DNA from: Terriglobia bacterium
Lineage (GTDB): Bacteria > Acidobacteriota > Terriglobia > UBA7540
DNA: 46,562 bases
NCBI GenBank assembly: GCA_020073545.1
Contig: JAIQEZ010000023.1
Location: 1-46,562, forward strand
Direction of reading: 5' to 3'
The notes beneath the pieces were generated by a model. The model was not told the DNA's origin and did no database searches. It saw only the letters and a list, made by a program, of their open reading frames with translations. The position numbers and the translations under genes are program-made. Shown piece after piece: positions 836-10,001 of this stretch (positions are counted from its first letter, which is position 1; every line of letters starts with the position of its first letter).

Positions 836-1948
836 TCACCCGCCGTGGCCGGCAGCAGGGGCGGCGGCAGGAACATCGGGACTGCTGCAAGCTTCCAATG
901 CCTCCTCCATGACCCTCCGCACCTCGCCGCCGTCCAGCATGCCACGGAGGCTGAGCGCCTTCGCCACGGCCTTGATTTGCAGTTCAAGGGTCGGGTCAAG
1001 CAGGATGCGGGACTCCAGCTTCCGGTCCTCCTCCTGCCAGGCTTGCATCGCCGCCTTGCGGTCTTCCTTGGAGATTGTCTCGCTTCCACGCTTCCTGGCC
1101 TCAAGCAGGGCGACAGCGCCAAAGTCTCCTGCTGCCCCATTCCCCCTGCGGCCGAGCCGGCAATATTTGCCGACTCCCCACAGGCGCTGCGCCAGGTTTC
1201 CCGCCACGAGCGACGACAGGAGGGGTTTGCCGCCCAAGCAGGTAACCCTGCCTCGCTCAAAGACGGAGGGCCAGGTCGCTATCTCGGCCATGGACACGCC
1301 ATGCCCGTCCCTTGTGTCCATAACGGCGTGCGCCGCCTCGTGGAGGCAGGTGTCCCAATGCCTGCGTGCGACATCCTCCAAGGGATTGAGGTTTTTACTT
1401 TTGCCTGCGCTTGTGGCGGTCCCTGCATGCGACCGGCGACCAGGAGGGCACGCTGCCTCCGGGTCGGTGGCGGTCTCCAGAATCTCGTCGTATGCCATGC
1501 GCCCCCGCACCGCAAGCATCCGCCCGACCCTGACGATGGTGCCCCAGTTCTCCCGGACGAGGCCCTTGGAGCGGAGGAAGGCTGGCATGACTTTCTTCCT
1601 GTCCTTCCATCCAGTGTCGCCGAAACAGATGGACGTGGGCTGCCAGGTTGACTTGCAGAAGCCGCACCGGCAGGAGCGGGCGAAGATGGAGAGCAAGGGT
1701 GCCGTCGGGCGGAGCAGGGCGTCGAAGGCCGCCCCCGCCATGGCGGAGACCATGCCCTCCTCGGCCGGCGGGCCGGGCTTGCCCTCCACGATGAGCCTGC
1801 CCGCAGCGTCGCCGGAGCCAATCTCGGCACCGGCGAAGGGGACTCCGAGCAATATGCCTGCGATGGCGTGCGCCGCCGCATGGCAGGCTGCCGCAAGCAC
1901 CGGGTCCTGGGTTACCTGCTTGGTTTCCTTCTCCTCCCCGTCAGCCAT
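836..1948 (-). CDS. Tandem M41-like (FtsH-type) peptidase-domain protein, no AAA domain
   Basis: About 370 residues starting at ATG 1948, preceded by GGAGGAAAGGGG. The frame is open further upstream, but the leader sequence there is low-complexity and unlike protein. Residues 203-207 read HEAAH inside C-L-H-E-A-A-H-A-V-M, the zinc-binding helix seen in FtsH/M41 peptidases (usually HEAGH). The following helical region, with G-A-A-G-D-F and a closing L-x-x-x-G-x-L-x-G-x-E-V, fits that fold. Residues 22-31 (C-H-A-A-A-H-A-I-A-G) look like a second copy whose catalytic Glu is Ala. A CRCGFC cluster with a later Cys (93-108) lies between them. No AAA+ ATPase or membrane segment is present. A regulatory or scaffold role for the dead copy is inference. 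Confidence 0.6.
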   Translation of the reverse strand: MADGEEKETKQVTQDPVLAAACHAAAHAIAGILLGVPFAGAEIGSGDAAGRLIVEGKPGPPAEEGMVSAMAGAAFDALLRPTAPLLSIFARSCRCGFCKSTWQPTSICFGDTGWKDRKKVMPAFLRSKGLVRENWGTIVRVGRMLAVRGRMAYDEILETATDPEAACPPGRRSHAGTATSAGKSKNLNPLEDVARRHWDTCLHEAAHAVMDTRDGHGVSMAEIATWPSVFERGRVTCLGGKPLLSSLVAGNLAQRLWGVGKYCRLGRRGNGAAGDFGAVALLEARKRGSETISKEDRKAAMQAWQEEDRKLESRILLDPTLELQIKAVAKALSLRGMLDGGEVRRVMEEALEACSSPDVPAAAPAAGHGG

Positions 1949-2614
1949 TCCCCTTTCCTCCGGCCAGGACTGTCCGGCCGTACCTGGTCTCTCCTTTGCA
2001 ATATACCGAGGGTCTTGGAGTTTCCGGCGGGATTCTACAGTCGCCGCAGGAAGCCAGGCGGGAAGCCCCGGCGCAGTTCGGGGTCGTGGCGGTGTCACCC
2101 TTGCCCGGCGACCCACGGAGACGAGGAGGGATTGCAGAGGCTTGCGGCGCAACGAGAAGAGCGGCGAGGGAGAAAGTCACGACATTTGTCGCCAGTCAGG
2201 CGCAGGTACGAGACGCTCGGGGTCGAGGGGAGGGCTGCCTGGTCCGGGAAAGGAACGGCTAAAACGGTCGTGAGCCAGTCCTCAGGCGGGTGGTCCATAA
2301 GGCTGGAAATCGGGGTGTGGTAAGTGGCTGTCTTCAGGGGGGTTGCAATTTGCAAATTGCCGCTGGTTCGCCGGTCCGTTGACTACAGTCTGGGGACCAG
2401 CGGCGCTATCCGAGAATGGGCGGACCAAGGGCGGGCCGAATCCCTGCATGGAAGGGCGTTCGCGCTAGAGCTTGCGCTCACTTTTTCCCGGCGCAATCTG
2501 GCCAGGTGGCCGCTCAGCACAGATTACGAGTGCGCCGTCAAGTGAGGAATCAGCGGGCGAACGTGGACACCACACCTGCGGTTTGGCCGTCGCCGAGCAT
2601 TCGGGAAACTAGGC
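1949..2614. other. Non-coding stretch between peptidase-like gene and methyltransferase gene
   Basis: I see no convincing gene here. Open frames up to about 150 codons exist but are Arg/Ser/Pro-rich, mutually overlapping and lack ribosome-binding sites. Promoter elements for the minus-strand peptidase-like gene should lie in its left part, but none stands out. It could contain decayed coding sequence. Confidence 0.4.
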
Positions 2615-3506: not shown

Positions 3507-4058
3507 CTACTTCTTCGGGGCGGGCCGGACCTTGGTATATTTGGACTCCTCGCAAGTCGTCCACGTCTTGCCATCAAGTGAGATTTCGTCCTTGAAGGTC
3601 CCGCTCGCCAAATCGGACGCAAATACAAAGGTCCCCTTGTACTGATGCTGCTTTCCTCCGCTGACCGAGCTTCCTGCATACCTCCATGTGTTGCCGGTAA
3701 TGGTCAGCACCCCTGAGAAGCTTGCTCCGTCGTCACCGTAGCTGTGATGGGTGAAGTTCTTGTTCACCGGGTCGTACCCGTCAATCTCAAGATTCCGCCA
3801 CTCTCCGTTAGCGTCCTTTTCCGTAAACCGGCACCGGAGAAAGAACCCTCCTAGAATCATCTGACAAGTCATTTCACCGGTAAACTTGCCACCGAGGCAC
3901 CCCGGTCCGGGCTTCGCCTCTCCCTCGTACGTCCAATGGCCCAGGTCGGCATGCAGCTTCTTGACCTCAGGGTCGGGCTTCGGAGCCGGTGCTTGGGCCT
4001 GCATGGCCGTGGCGGAGAAGACCACTAAAACGAGCAGCAAGAGACTGATTCGTTGCAT
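3507..4058 (-). CDS. Secreted DUF1579-type protein
   Basis: 183 residues. It begins with a clear Sec signal peptide (M-Q-R-I-S then about 12 hydrophobic residues, cleavage near A-M-Q-A-Q-A), so it should be periplasmic or exported. The mature part has L-G-H-W-T-Y-E-G, then G-x-Y-D-P-x-N and T-G-N-T-W-R-Y, a beta-rich calycin-like pattern matching DUF1579. Start ATG 4058 has GGGGAGG five bases upstream; the longer open frame upstream is not needed. It is followed by the methyltransferase gene. A related but broken copy may lie at 45370-45805. Biochemical function unknown. Confidence 0.75.
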   Translation of the reverse strand: MQRISLLLLVLVVFSATAMQAQAPAPKPDPEVKKLHADLGHWTYEGEAKPGPGCLGGKFTGEMTCQMILGGFFLRCRFTEKDANGEWRNLEIDGYDPVNKNFTHHSYGDDGASFSGVLTITGNTWRYAGSSVSGGKQHQYKGTFVFASDLASGTFKDEISLDGKTWTTCEESKYTKVRPAPKK

Positions 4059-4293
4059 GATGCCTCCCCGAAAATGAAGATGTGATTCTCTTGCGGTACC
4101 GAGAGCCTGAGGAAAAAGCAGGCAGTTCAAGCCCTCGGCGCACCTTCGGAGCTTGAGGAGCGTGGGCAACACAGGACGGGAGCGGACGCAGGCTGCCATT
4201 ACGCCCTCCCTCTCGGCCTTGGTATTCAGCTAGGCTGATTGGCGAAATGCTCGCCCCCGCAGGTCAAGATGTCAAGTCAAAACCGCAACGGGA

Positions 4294-4545
4294 TTACCGA
4301 GGTGCATCATGCCTGGGTGTGAAATTGGGGGGCTTGCCAGGCTCGGGTTCATGGTACCGCCGCTTCAGTTCAAGCAGCACGAACCGCAGCAAAACGTCAT
4401 CGGGCGAGCAAGCGATAAGGGCAGCTTCGGCAACGGTGCGGACAAACGTCGGCGTCCTCCCGCTCTCGGATGCCCACCGGAGCCACTCTCGCAGTTCAGG
4501 GTCGGCGTGTGCATGATGGCCTTCAGGCGTATCTTTCCATCTCAT
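4294..4545 (-). CDS. Small hypothetical protein, third gene of the DUF429 operon
   Basis: 83 residues, mostly helical (L-R-E-W-L-R-W-A-S-E-S-G and V-A-E-A-A-L-I-A-C-S-P-D-D-V-L-L-R-F-V), charged, with no signal peptide or membrane segment. Its ATG at 4545 lies 23 bases inside the end of the upstream gene, which suggests translational coupling. Not recognised. Because the overlap and composition are plausible but the protein is short and its family unknown, confidence is moderate. Confidence 0.5.
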   Translation of the reverse strand: MRWKDTPEGHHAHADPELREWLRWASESGRTPTFVRTVAEAALIACSPDDVLLRFVLLELKRRYHEPEPGKPPNFTPRHDAPR

Positions 4546-5278
4546 TACCGAAGCCGACCACCGCGCAGTCGACCGCCCTCACGGGCCATCGTCCCCCTCG
4601 TCCGTCGCGGACCCTGTACCCGTCGCGGAGGCAGCACAGCGAGCCAGGATGGTAATTCACGGCGACGATTCGGCCGCAGAACTCGTCCGCGATGTCCTGC
4701 GGCAAGCTGTTTCCCAGCAGCACCTCGCAAGCGGGCAGCTTGATGCGCCGCCTACGCCAGTCGTGCGGAATCCTCCACACCTTCCCGGACGGGTCTTTCC
4801 AATAGGCCCTTGCGACGTCGCCGGGCGCGACGCTCACTTTAATGTCGCCTATACCCTCCCCTTCCGATGCGGCCTTGTCCGGAATGTTTATGTCGCACAG
4901 GTTCCACCACGTCGGCGGGCACCAGCTTTCGAGCCAGCTTGACTCGTGCGTGACCTCGTAGCGGCTGGCCTCAATCACAGACGAGACGCCGCCGGAGAGC
5001 CAGTGCCGGGGCAGCCTCCAGGCCCGGCCGCTGGCGTCCGTGTACAGGACCCGCACGGGCCAATAATCGTTCCACGCGATGCCATCGTCATCGACCAGCA
5101 TCGGCAAGCCCGCCGGAGGGTCATCCAGGTCGAGGCGCAGCGCCATAGGCGGCTCTTCGGGAAAGACGTCTACGGTCACCGTCCGGCCTGCCAGGCTGGC
5201 CGCCAGCTCCTCGGGCATGTTTATCTCTTGCAGCCGGAACTTCTCATTGGGAAGCGCGAGTTGCTGCGTCGAGGTCAT
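4523..5278 (-). CDS. Hypothetical protein with three imperfect W/P-containing repeats
   Basis: 251 residues from ATG 5278. A GTG at 5407 would overlap the upstream gene and adds an unconvincing N-terminus. Not recognised as a family. Three imperfect units can be seen, each opening with P-x-x-x-A then G-x-x-V-x-V (about residues 22-38, 133-150, 193-208) and closing with D-x-S/G-G-x-x-W (about 81-93, 162-174, 225-231). The first two end in WRLPRHW and WRIPHDW. Predominantly beta with acidic loops; no export signal. It is the middle gene between a DUF429 protein and an 83-residue protein. A small beta-barrel binding module is inference. Confidence 0.6.
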   Translation of the reverse strand: MTSTQQLALPNEKFRLQEINMPEELAASLAGRTVTVDVFPEEPPMALRLDLDDPPAGLPMLVDDDGIAWNDYWPVRVLYTDASGRAWRLPRHWLSGGVSSVIEASRYEVTHESSWLESWCPPTWWNLCDINIPDKAASEGEGIGDIKVSVAPGDVARAYWKDPSGKVWRIPHDWRRRRIKLPACEVLLGNSLPQDIADEFCGRIVAVNYHPGSLCCLRDGYRVRDGRGGRWPVRAVDCAVVGFGNEMERYA

Positions 5279-5382
5279 GCAGGTCTCGGGAGTAGTTTCA
5301 GGGGAGCGCACCACCGACAATATACCTCCGCAGTCAAGCAGGCTCGGGGAAACCTGCGGCGGCGTGAACGGCAATGGAATCG

Positions 5383-6324
5383 CTAAGTGTTCCGGCCAAG
5401 AATCCACCCTTCAATCTCCCGGATTGCTCGGTCGTCCGGCTCGCCGGGCGAACGCTCGCCGAGGCACACATGGAGCATCCCGAAGAGGCCGACCACAGCA
5501 TCGAAGGCATCGTCCCCCTGCGGGAAGCCGCTTTGAATGTCCTCAGTGAGGCAATTCGCAAGCATGACGTCGTGGTTGTCAGCCCAACCAAGGAGTGATG
5601 CACCGAACTTTCTCCTGTTGCCCCGCTCGCACTTGCTGCCGAGCGGGTCCTTGGAGAACCAGCGGCAGCACTCTGCGGGGTACGTCTCGGCAACAACGAT
5701 GTTCCCCGGCACCAGCAGCGACGGCAGAGCGCCGTCGAACGGCCATAAGAACACCGGCCTTCCGTCCCCCAATGCGGGGGCGAGCACGTCCCGCCAGCCG
5801 CTGATGGCGGCCTTGCCGACCTGATTGCCGCCGAGCGTCCAAAAGAGGCAATATGCCTGCCTTTGGCCGTTGCCGCCCCGCTCGCAGCGGCGCAGCAGAG
5901 GCTCCAGTGACGAGACGCCGTGACCACGAAACAAATCATCTTTTCGCCGACCCTTGTACTTGCCGTTCGGGTAGAAGGGACGATGCACAGATATTTGCTC
6001 GGGCTTGTCGCAGACGGAATAAAAATCTTTCCACTTGCGGTGCCCCAGCTTGGGGAGCAGGGTGCGGAAACTCGATATGCCCGCCTGCTGGGCATAAACG
6101 GCGGGGACGCCGATGGGAAAGTCGAACCCGGCGAAGGCGCACCCGGTCCCCCCGATTTCTCTGCAAAGGGCGGAAACGAGTGAGCCGGGAGTGCCCACTC
6201 GTTCAGGAGCGAAGGCGGTGTAGCGGCCGTCAGCGCCGAGGAACGCCCTGGCGCACCACCGCTTCGGGTTTTTGCTGCCCCAATCAGCGTGATAAACCAC
6301 GTCCGGCTTGGCGGGCTGTGCCAT
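5383..6324 (-). CDS. DUF429-like protein, predicted RNase H-fold nuclease
   Basis: 313 residues, ATG 6324 with GGAG nine bases upstream. Spaced acidic motifs match the RNase H-like DUF429 pattern: H-A-D-W-G (Asp14), G-F-D-F-P (Asp68), A-E-T-Y-P (Glu213) and D-D-A-F-D-A (Asp271/272/275). An insert rich in basic residues (about 95-150) separates motifs two and three. Soluble, no signal peptide. It is the first gene of a minus-strand operon with the repeat protein and the 83-residue protein. DUF429 members are predicted nucleases with no settled role. A second, diverged member lies at 8011-8748. Confidence 0.7.
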   Translation of the reverse strand: MAQPAKPDVVYHADWGSKNPKRWCARAFLGADGRYTAFAPERVGTPGSLVSALCREIGGTGCAFAGFDFPIGVPAVYAQQAGISSFRTLLPKLGHRKWKDFYSVCDKPEQISVHRPFYPNGKYKGRRKDDLFRGHGVSSLEPLLRRCERGGNGQRQAYCLFWTLGGNQVGKAAISGWRDVLAPALGDGRPVFLWPFDGALPSLLVPGNIVVAETYPAECCRWFSKDPLGSKCERGNRRKFGASLLGWADNHDVMLANCLTEDIQSGFPQGDDAFDAVVGLFGMLHVCLGERSPGEPDDRAIREIEGWILGRNT

Positions 6325-6602
6325 GTGCGCTCGCTCCAGTCAACAGAGCTTTCCGAGGCTCATGAATTTTACCTTGCGTTTGAGCGGCAGGTCACGCACT
6401 ACGCTGGTGAAAGCACAATTCTCTTGCACATGGCGAGTTGATGTTATTAGGGGAAAGCTTTGCTAGGCTTTAGCTATGTTGGGGCCGCCCCGCTTCAAAG
6501 AGGGTTTTTGGGGAAAAGCTCCGTAACCCATAGCTATGCTTTAGCTTGCAGGGATGTCCATGAAAATCCCCAGGAGAGAGAAGTGAGACAAGAGACTAAA
6601 AC
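6325..6602. other. Non-coding stretch between DUF429 gene and tRNA terminator
   Basis: No convincing gene. Two related A/T-rich motifs are visible (AGGGGAAAGCTTTGC near 6450 and GGGGAAAAGCTCC near 6510, each followed by a TTTAGCTATG or ATAGCTATGC string), an imperfect direct duplication of about 55-60 bases' period. This side of the tRNA is where an integrase att site would be expected, but I found no duplicated tRNA 3' end. Confidence 0.35.
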
Positions 6603-6632
6603 CAAAAAGTCCCGCAACTGCTTGCGGGACTT
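6603..6632 (-). terminator. Rho-independent terminator downstream of tRNA-Leu
   Basis: AAGTCCCGCAA at 6607-6617 pairs perfectly with TTGCGGGACTT at 6622-6632 across a four-base loop. Read on the minus strand the stem is followed by TTTTT. It lies about 37 bases downstream of the tRNA-Leu 3' end. Confidence 0.8.
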
Positions 6633-6668
6633 AGATTTGCCATATTTTATGAGAAATTTCTTGACAGG

Positions 6669-6755
6669 TGGTGCGGAAGGGGGGATTCGAACCCCCACGC
6701 TCTTGCGAGCGTCAGCCCCTCAAGCTGGTGCGTCTGCCAGTTCCGCCACTTCCGC
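6669..6755 (-). tRNA. tRNA-Leu, anticodon GAG
   Basis: Reading the minus strand, GCGGAAG pairs with CTTCCGC, followed by discriminator A and an encoded CCA (6669-6671). It has the class II layout: T-G-G-C-G-G after the acceptor, an anticodon loop TTGAGGG (6717-6723) with anticodon GAG at 6719-6721, a long variable arm with ACGCTC/GAGCGT stem, and a GGGGGTTCGAATCCCCC T arm. The anticodon stem has one C-A mismatch at its outer pair. It decodes CUC and CUU. The 3' end faces the accessory block at lower coordinates. Confidence 0.96.
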
Positions 6756-6781
6756 ACTTGGAGGGCTTGAAAAAAGCCATC

Positions 6782-6856
6782 AGCATTCAGCAACCAGCCC
6801 TCAGCCAAAGCACTTTGTAGCCTTTGCTGAGAGATGAACGCCGATTGCTGAATGCT
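6782..6856. repeat. TCAGC-type inverted-repeat spacer between secG and tRNA-Leu
   Basis: AGCATTCAGCAA at 6782-6793 is perfectly complementary to TTGCTGAATGCT at 6845-6856; in between are further CAGC/GCTG motifs. The segment immediately follows the secG stop and can form a long hairpin. Similar CAGC-rich spacers recur at 40314-40370 and 44181-44288. Confidence 0.75.
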
Positions 6857-6864
6857 TGCTCGTC

Positions 6865-7164
6865 CTACTTCTTCGCGGGCGCGGGAGCCGCCGGCGCGGT
6901 CTTGACGGGGGCGTTTTCCAGCACCGCGCCCGTGCCCCCACGCGAGGCGTGCACGGCCAGCGTGATCGACGTGACCATGAAAATCGCTCCCAGCACCCAG
7001 GTAATCTTGGCCAGCAGCGTGACGGAGCCGCGCGGGCCGAACGCCGCCTGACTTGTTCCGCCGAAAGCTGCGGTGATGTCCACGTTCTCGCCACCCTGCA
7101 GGAGCACGATTCCAATCAGCAGGGCGCAGACCAGGACGTGCACAATCTCGACAAGAGTAATCAT
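6865..7164 (-). CDS. secG: Preprotein translocase subunit SecG
   Basis: 99 residues. A hydrophobic N-terminal helix (V-E-I-V-H-V-L-V-C-A-L-L-I-G-I-V-L-L-Q) is followed by the SecG signature G-G-x-x-x-A-F-G-G-T-S-Q-A-A-F-G-P-R-G and a second membrane helix, then an Ala/Pro/Lys tail. SecG associates with SecYE in the inner membrane and helps SecA-driven export. It is the last gene of the gap-pgk-tpiA run; the tpiA-secG order is common in bacteria. Confidence 0.95.
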   Translation of the reverse strand: MITLVEIVHVLVCALLIGIVLLQGGENVDITAAFGGTSQAAFGPRGSVTLLAKITWVLGAIFMVTSITLAVHASRGGTGAVLENAPVKTAPAAPAPAKK

Positions 7165-7969: not shown

Positions 7970-8005
7970 GTAGGCAGTAGGCAGAAGGCAGTAGGCAGTG
8001 GGCAG
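7970..8005. repeat. GTAGGCAG tandem repeat, left member of a pair flanking a DUF429 gene
   Basis: About four and a half imperfect copies of a 7-8 base unit (GTAGGCA / GAAGGCA / GTGGGCA). An inverted relative lies at 8788-8817 on the other side of the DUF429-like gene. A further inverted pair lies at 10037-10068 and 10256-10284. Confidence 0.85.
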
Positions 8006-8010
8006 ACCAC

Positions 8011-8748
8011 TCATGCTGCTTTTTTCGCCAAACACGGGTTGACGATGAACCCTTCGAGTATCACCCCGGCAACCTTCTTAGGGGGAGTACCTTGCGCAAT
8101 GTAGCCGCTCGTGTTTCCGCCCAGAATGGCAACTCCGGCAAGCCCAGCAACTAGCGCGGATAGCTCATCATGCGTCGGCGGCTGACTTATTCGCAACGAA
8201 TTCAGTTGCTCCAACGCATCTACTCCCCTTTTCACATCCGCAGGCTTTGCTTTCTTCTTCCCTGGCAGCGGAGGAAGATCCAGTTTGCACCAAGCAGACC
8301 GCGGATAGGACTCCACGAGTAGGAAGCCGTCCGGCGGAACAGCAGGCGTCGAACACTCAACCAATGTGCCACAGAGCGTTGTCAAGTGCTCGAACAGAGA
8401 AATAGAAAATTCGACAAATCGCGTGAAGTTCTTGGGCTTCACTTGATTTGCAATCCCTGTCTTGGCTTGAGCGTTCAAAATCTTCTCACAATACCTGTAT
8501 TCCAAGTCACTTTCGGGGTCCTTCCAACCCTGCGGGCCATCGAGCAAGAGAACACTGACCCCCTCTCTCCGGAGAAAGCATGAGATTGCGTGTGCATAGT
8601 CATCAGCCCTAGGCTCTTCCTCGAGGTTCATTTCGTCAGGTTTCAGAAATCGAACGGTCGGCGGTTTCTGCCCTTGGACCTCGAGCAGACACAGCCCGAA
8701 ATCACGGCTGCTCCTACAAGCCAAATCTATCGACAGGACTGTACCCAA
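8011..8748 (-). CDS. DUF429-like protein (predicted RNase H fold) inside the glycolytic cluster
   Basis: 245 residues from a TTG at 8748, supported by AGGTGA four bases upstream. Motifs parallel the DUF429 protein at 5383-6324: L-S-I-D-L-A (Asp8), L-L-L-D-G-P (Asp70), L-V-E-S-Y-P-R (Glu146) and T-H-D-E-L-S-A-L-V-A-G (Asp194/Glu195). The two proteins are otherwise very different. It interrupts the usual pgk-tpiA adjacency and is bracketed by inverted GTAGGCAG-type repeats, so it looks like an inserted cassette. Predicted nuclease; no role is established. Confidence 0.7.
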   Translation of the reverse strand: MGTVLSIDLACRSSRDFGLCLLEVQGQKPPTVRFLKPDEMNLEEEPRADDYAHAISCFLRREGVSVLLLDGPQGWKDPESDLEYRYCEKILNAQAKTGIANQVKPKNFTRFVEFSISLFEHLTTLCGTLVECSTPAVPPDGFLLVESYPRSAWCKLDLPPLPGKKKAKPADVKRGVDALEQLNSLRISQPPTHDELSALVAGLAGVAILGGNTSGYIAQGTPPKKVAGVILEGFIVNPCLAKKAA

Positions 8749-8787: not shown

Positions 8788-8817
8788 ACTGCCTTCTGCC
8801 TACTGCTTACCGCCTAC
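8788..8817. repeat. GTAGGCAG-type repeat, right member, overlapping the pgk stop codon
   Basis: Read on the minus strand it begins GTAGGCGGTAAGCAGTAGG and continues with GCAGAAGGCAGT, an inverted relative of 7970-8005. The TAG stop of pgk (8814-8816) is part of the first unit. Confidence 0.85.
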
Positions 8818-10001
8818 TTTTCCGTCAGCGCGGCGACGCCGGGGAGCGTGAGGCCGGAGAGGAACTCGAGCGACGCCCCGCCGCCGGTCGAGATGTGGCT
8901 GATCTTGTCGGCGACGCCCATCTTCTTCACCGCCGACACCGAATCCCCGCCGCCCACGATCGTGACGGCCGACGAGGCCGCAACGGCCTTAGCGATGGCC
9001 AGCGTCCCCGCAGCGAACTGACTCATCTCGAACACCCCCATCGGACCGTTCCAGACGATGGTTTTGGCCTTGGAGATTTCCGCCGCGTACTCGGCGCGCG
9101 TCGCCGGACCGATGTCGAGCCCGATGCGGTTCGCGGGGATCGCGCGGGTCGCGTCCGTCTCCGCAGCAGCCGAAGCGTCGAACTTCTCGGCAACGATGTG
9201 GTCCTTGGGCAGCAGGAATTTCTTACCGCGCGACTGGGCGTCCTGCAAGAGCGCCTTGGCGAGATCCAGCTTGTCGTCTTCGGTCTTCGACAATCCAACC
9301 TCGACACCCTGCGCCTTCAGAAACGTATACGCCATGGCGCCGCCCACCAGCACGGTGTCGGCGATCTTCAAAAAGTTCTGGAGCAATTCGATTTTGTCGG
9401 AGACCTTCGCGCCGCCCACGATTGCCACGTAAGGCCGCGCCACGTTTTCGACCGCTCTGCCGAGGTATTCAAGCTCCTTCTCCATCAGCAGGCCCGCGGC
9501 ACAAGGAGAAAGGTAGTGCGTCATGCCTTCCGTAGAAGCGTGGGCACGATGCGCGGAACCGAAAGCGTCGTCCACGTAGACCTCGGCAAGCGCAGCAAGC
9601 TGCTGCGCAAACCCGGGGACGTTCTTCTCTTCCTCCGGATGGAAGCGCAGGTTCTCGAGCAGAAGCACGTCGCCGTCCTTAAGCGCCTTCGCCGCAGCTT
9701 CGGCTTGCGGCCCGACGCAATCCGGCGCGAAGGCCACGGGCTTGCCGAGCACTTCCGCCAGGCGAGTGGCCGCCGGCTTCAGGCTCATTTTGGGATTGGG
9801 TTTGCCCTTGGGGCGGCCCAGGTGCGAGCCCAGAATCAGCCGGCCACCTCGCTCCACGAGGTATTGAATGGTGGGCAGCGAGGCTCGGATGCGAGTGTCA
9901 TCCGTGATTTCGCCCGCGTCGTTCAGGGGCACGTTGAAGTCGACGCGCATGAAAATGCGCTTGCCAGTGGGTTTGAGGTCACGAACTGAAAGTTTGGCCA
10001 T
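8814..10001 (-). CDS. pgk: Phosphoglycerate kinase
   Basis: 395 residues, full length. Transfers phosphate from 1,3-bisphosphoglycerate to ADP. The N-terminal domain has R-V-D-F-N-V-P-L (substrate loop), S-H-L-G-R-P-K-G and L-L-E-N-L-R-F; the C-terminal nucleotide domain has I-V-G-G-A-K-V-S-D-K, W-N-G-P-M-G-V-F-E and the G-G-G-D-S hinge/helix motif. ATG 10001 is preceded by GGAG eight bases upstream. It lies between gap and the inserted DUF429 gene. The last codons run straight into a repeat that supplies the stop. Confidence 0.98.
   Translation of the reverse strand: MAKLSVRDLKPTGKRIFMRVDFNVPLNDAGEITDDTRIRASLPTIQYLVERGGRLILGSHLGRPKGKPNPKMSLKPAATRLAEVLGKPVAFAPDCVGPQAEAAAKALKDGDVLLLENLRFHPEEEKNVPGFAQQLAALAEVYVDDAFGSAHRAHASTEGMTHYLSPCAAGLLMEKELEYLGRAVENVARPYVAIVGGAKVSDKIELLQNFLKIADTVLVGGAMAYTFLKAQGVEVGLSKTEDDKLDLAKALLQDAQSRGKKFLLPKDHIVAEKFDASAAAETDATRAIPANRIGLDIGPATRAEYAAEISKAKTIVWNGPMGVFEMSQFAAGTLAIAKAVAASSAVTIVGGGDSVSAVKKMGVADKISHISTGGGASLEFLSGLTLPGVAALTEK

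Follow-up and report, generated by a model that had tools for sequence, protein, structure and literature searches.

Likely mosaic gene cargo, including a predicted RuvC-like DUF429 protein and two uncatalogued protein families, beside a tRNA-Leu gene of a Terriglobia bacterium

The segment 4294-6324 described here is likely to be a variable mosaic of cargo genes beside a tRNA-Leu gene that serves as an integration hot spot, and not a co-evolved three-gene system. The window, i.e. the whole stretch of DNA that was analyzed (46,562 nucleotides), is G000:C252, an entire contig of a draft genome. The segment carries genes for a DUF429-like protein, for a repeat protein (REP3) and for a small protein (SMALL), which were found in other genomes apart, reordered and often truncated, yet repeatedly no more than a few kb apart and in many cases close to a tyrosine or serine recombinase.

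Gene organization of the segment

The original prediction of three co-directional open reading frames, the last two overlapping by 23 bases, was borne out: all three are on the minus strand, which had not been specified before, and the REP3 and SMALL genes share positions 4523-4545. The features relevant to this work are the following.

6669-6755, minus strand: tRNA-Leu(gag), the end of a conserved tpi-secG-tRNA block
6456-6690, no strand assigned: non-coding block that starts within the tRNA 3' end and stops short of the DUF429-like gene
5383-6324, minus strand: gene for a DUF429-like predicted nuclease of the RuvC-clade RNase H fold, 313 aa, with the acidic set D14, E213, D272 and D275
5315-5382, minus strand: linker 3' of the DUF429-like gene, with TTGACT (5337-5332) and TATATT (5324-5319), 4 bases ahead of a GTG
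4523-5314, minus strand: REP3, uncatalogued repeat-protein family, start GTG 5314 or ATG 5278
4294-4545, minus strand: SMALL, 83-aa protein, starting at an ATG within the end of REP3
3507-4199, minus strand: DUF1579 gene

When compared with relatives, each of the three genes showed purifying selection, with dN/dS values of approximately 0.23-0.30 for the DUF429-like gene (dN approximately 0.15-0.17, dS approximately 0.54-0.66, three relatives), approximately 0.18-0.31 for REP3 (dN and dS of 0.15 and 0.47 in one pair, 0.21 and 1.19 in another) and approximately 0.25 for SMALL (dN 0.12, dS 0.50, closest relative). This selection pattern identifies all three as protein-coding genes. In an Rfam search of positions 4000-7000 only the tRNA scored above the gathering score; an isrJ-like RNA match at 6606-6660 was below the threshold and was discarded.

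The 294-aa REP3 frame is too long. Homologues begin only near position 5278, and a REP3 fragment from another genus (G036) opens with ATGATGCGCTCCCC, corresponding to GTGGTGCGCTCCCC at 5314. These observations show that the frame is over-extended and rule out a start at GTG 5407. With a start at GTG 5314 or ATG 5278, REP3 does not overlap the DUF429-like gene.

Elsewhere in the window (836-2152, minus strand), a 438-aa frame contains two zinc-peptidase-like motifs of the HEAAHA/HAAAHA type and has no significant Pfam match.

The DUF429-like protein resembles RuvC-type resolvases

The assignment of the first gene product as a DUF429 nuclease-like protein was supported by conservation and by a structure model, which point to a DUF429/RNase H-like protein of the RuvC clade with presumptive nuclease activity. 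In the Pfam search the window protein was below the gathering threshold of PF04250 (13.7 vs 23 bits); the family matched 14 of 34 aligned DUF429-like sequences at E ≤ 0.05, with a best E of 9e-7. D14, E213, D272 and D275 are invariant in the alignment of the 34 sequences. In the confident model (pLDDT 91, pTM 0.92) D14 ends the strand 9-14, E213 ends the strand 209-213, and D272 and D275 are on the helix 271-287, so that conserved acidic residues are located on the first and fourth strands, as in an RNase H-like core. This D/E/D..D set is the pattern of RuvC, which has the corresponding D..E..DxxD arrangement.

All ten best structural matches were RuvC-type Holliday-junction resolvases (RuvC, Ydc2, and poxvirus and phage RuvC), with Z scores of 7.0-8.7, a range that the tool rates as middling: 8.7 for Ydc2, 8.3 for the fowlpox enzyme and 7.7 for T. 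thermophilus RuvC. Foldseek E values were above 0.05 throughout, and a sequence search of PDB chains with the DUF429 profile gave no match. In contrast to RuvC, the window protein is about twice as long, shares approximately 10% identity and has a large conserved insertion (the FWTLGGNQVGK region); junction resolution is only a putative activity. The model and the conservation indicate an RNase H-like fold nearest to that of RuvC-type resolvases, with an acidic catalytic set, and the gene probably encodes a RuvC-like DNA-cutting enzyme. The predicted fold and the acidic positions agree with those of DUF429 (PF04250; COG2410/COG4328/COG4923), which has been assigned to clade D of the RNase H-like superfamily alongside resolvases and was considered unlikely to be mobile (PMC3985635). 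In contrast to the latter view, the window protein is linked to mobile DNA.

A second, distinct DUF429-type gene (8011-8748, minus strand) separates pgk from tpi in the window and is bordered by 30-nt inverted repeats of TAGGCAG units (7976-8005 and 8789-8818). It looks like a recent insertion, as judged from the gene order in four sister genomes, where pgk is directly followed by tpi.

REP3 and SMALL

The middle protein had been described as three imperfect repeat units. Similarity was confirmed between units 1 and 2 (hhalign score 46.6, against at most 21.3 in 100 column shuffles) and between units 1 and 3 (30.3, shuffles up to 17.1), whereas units 2 and 3 were not significantly similar on their own (12.5, 95% point of the shuffles 13.6). 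The motifs WRIPHDWRRRR and VNYHPGS are invariant. REP3 had no match in Pfam, NCBIfam, PADLOC, PHROG or PDB sequences; its structure model was poor (pLDDT 63), and the structural search yielded no usable matches. That the second and third families had not been recognized earlier is in line with these searches, since neither REP3 nor SMALL matched any library searched.

The start codon common to SMALL relatives (ATGATGGACTCC...) has been lost from the window copy. The loss falls at the REP3 junction (approximately 4503-4511), and SMALL now starts at an ATG inside the REP3 end; the overlap of the two genes therefore resembles a scar left by recombination. In the sister genome G002 (C468, L114) the SMALL-DUF1579 block (3507-4503) is kept at 73% DNA identity over approximately 1 kb. 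In this locus, which gave the best SMALL match, the neighbor of SMALL is DUF1579 and not REP3, and an integrase lies on the other side of the block. Many SMALL copies are broken. An interpretation of SMALL as a non-coding DNA repeat was ruled out by the predominance of third-position substitutions and by the start codon that the relatives share. In five loci (L114, L115, L116, L118 and L119) a TATA-like hexamer was seen a few nucleotides 5' of the SMALL start codon, a spacing that suggests leaderless transcripts.

The tRNA-Leu site

The order tpi-secG-tRNA-Leu is kept in six sister genomes, and those downstream sides that were available differ. Cargo thus lies beside the tRNA 3' end and is missing there in relatives, as in tRNA-targeted islands, and the resemblance extends to integrases in relatives and to att repeats in G016. 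An integrase was found 3' of the orthologous tRNA-Leu gene in G002 (L180); integrases are also present near copies of the block genes in L114, L118, L122 and L131, and a resolvase in L121.

In G014 and G016, which belong to two other genera, DUF429 fragments come after a sequence 78-81% identical to window positions 6456-6690, which itself adjoins a tRNA-Leu-type 3'-end (att) sequence. G016 has an integrase-bearing element between two copies of TGGTGCCGAAGAGAGGACT, one of which is in tRNA-Leu; the DNA just beyond this element matches 6456-6690, and a DUF429 fragment follows. Unlike in tRNA-targeted islands, the tRNA end is not present as a direct repeat anywhere else in the window, and no integrase was recognized near the block among the ORFs examined to the left of the tRNA, so the site is no more than an island that has decayed or been trimmed. 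The 6456-6690 block is partly kept after tRNA-Leu in G026 and G027, which lack DUF429 at this place; part of it may therefore be an ordinary tRNA trailer.

Distribution of the three families

Of 39 genomes from the family to which the window belongs, nine have REP3, four have SMALL and four have the DUF429-like gene. Neither REP3 nor SMALL was detected in about 395 other genomes sampled from the phylum, and a search for REP3 at the order level, which added one genome, gave no match. DUF429 relatives are frequent in Rhizobiales and scattered elsewhere, the nearest named relatives of the window sequence being from Acidobacteria (L013, L014). A close DUF429 paralogue (77%) is present elsewhere in the window's genome, in C255. 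REP3 and SMALL were absent from the viral contigs searched and REP3 from the plasmids searched, and none of the three proteins matched PHROGs.

In a set of rhizobial loci (L022, L031, L042 and about 20 more) the genes are arranged as DUF3102-like, uncharacterized, AAA ATPase, M41 peptidase and DUF429. The ATPase and the peptidase are encoded by separate genes (a split FtsH), and an integrase-like gene is mostly nearby. A literature search on this AAA/M41-peptidase/DUF429 set found no paper under the terms used.

Gene order in related genomes

Several of the genomes compared are metagenome assemblies in many pieces, and in L117, L120 and L127 the neighbors are lost beyond the end of the contig. 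With S for SMALL, D for DUF429 and R for REP3, many of the copies being partial, the order is D-R-S in the window, S-D in L113 and L115, D-S in L116, S-R in L118 and S..R in L122; in L119 the end of R, the tail of D and S are packed into approximately 410 bp. Among the loci compared, none beyond the window has all three genes intact. The 3' end of DUF429 and the promoter-like linker precede three different genes: REP3 in the window, a 105-aa ORF in C255 (L113) and SMALL in G002:C174 (L119). Homology borders coincide with gene ends (6337 to 5338 for the DUF429 unit, 4503-4511 for the SMALL start).

Of the eight loci in which REP3 exceeds 70 residues, the window is the only one with DUF429 adjacent. 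Intact REP3 genes in G008, G037, G024 and G016 have other neighbors, in G008 a gene for a DSP-phosphatase-like protein (L121:1830-2237, minus strand). The catalytic Cys position of this protein is apparently Ser (VHSLEGVNR), and it is possibly an inactive phosphatase. In genus g11 the REP3 neighbors are common to L124 and L126, and the gene is therefore not always mobile.

These results do not support the proposal that a nuclease and its dedicated partners form a fixed module, since DUF429 adjoins none of the intact REP3 genes of other genomes. Co-occurrence of the homologues had been suggested as a check, with their never occurring together as the contrary outcome. Joint occurrence in the family is not random: all four DUF429-bearing family genomes also have REP3, which nine of the 39 possess (p = 0.0015, with fragments counted and uncorrected for kinship). 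On the other hand, among 80 DUF429 loci found elsewhere REP3 was not detected, and SMALL only as one fragment, in L013 of the window's own genus. Separation was thus observed in part, with REP3 standing elsewhere without an adjoining DUF429 and varied genes behind the DUF429 3' end.

Origin and possible function of the segment

In the favored explanation, the DUF429-like protein would be a metal-dependent endonuclease acting on branched or element DNA. It would serve integrative elements as an accessory, helping either in their recombination or in their competition against phages and other elements. REP3 and SMALL would have joined DUF429 through recombination at gene borders, at or near promoter-like leaders, and such events would place differing small genes behind the DUF429 3' end and the linker.

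A sharper form of this explanation, possible although we hold it with some doubt, makes the DUF429 protein an integrative-element accessory nuclease, RuvC-like and acting on excision, replication or transfer intermediates, with REP3 and SMALL incidental. An element-accessory role is favored on account of about 23 rhizobial loci where a DUF429 relative comes after the conserved AAA-ATPase and M41-peptidase genes, in most of them with an integrase-like gene at most four genes away. The predicted RuvC-like fold fits such a role, as do the DUF429 copies or fragments that come after the same tRNA-end block in the window, G014 and G016, whereas a chromosomal-looking neighborhood, common to six acidobacterial DUF429 loci (L050, L052, L062, L065, L070, L083), and the published view of DUF429 as probably not mobile (PMC3985635) argue against it.

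A dedicated three-part defense or regulatory system, with DUF429 as effector, REP3 as nucleic-acid-binding sensor (RRRR, W-rich units) and SMALL as helical regulator, appears improbable. The fragments would then reflect a block that travels as a unit and decays fast, and the overlapping genes on one strand in the window, the presence of REP3 in every DUF429-bearing family genome and the DUF429 or REP3 sequence within approximately 3.3 kb at 7 of 10 SMALL places (window included, several orders) are all compatible with such a system. However, no second locus has all three genes intact, intact REP3 occurs elsewhere without adjoining DUF429, DUF429 is widespread without REP3 or SMALL, the PADLOC defense models do not match the three-gene block, and the SMALL start in the window is a secondary junction.

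Equally improbable, in our estimate, is an arrangement in which DUF429 is a nuclease with a fixed 3' end and linker, behind which cassettes (REP3, SMALL, the 105-aa ORF) are swapped at tRNA hot spots, possibly with a defensive function and with the nuclease aiding the exchange. Integron gene cassettes are similar in that small uncharacterized genes are swapped at gene borders; unlike integrons, the loci yielded no integron integrase, and their junctions vary in position. Least probable of all is that these are ordinary, vertically inherited chromosomal genes with rearranged neighbors and no mobile element: DUF429 and REP3 differ little in GC and GC3 from the adjacent glycolytic genes and REP3 is syntenic in g11, but the genes are missing from most family members, the same genome has the C255 paralogue, recombinases are repeatedly nearby and sister genomes diverge exactly downstream of the tRNA.

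Interpreting the segment as mosaic cargo corrects the tempting assignment of a new operon, the adjacency and the overlapping frames being probably products of recombination in this case. Two uncatalogued protein families, REP3 and SMALL, are added, and a DUF429-type, predicted RuvC-like nuclease is placed on mobile DNA, against the published remark (PMC3985635). The conserved rhizobial AAA/M41-peptidase/DUF429 set near integrases can be tested in cultured strains.
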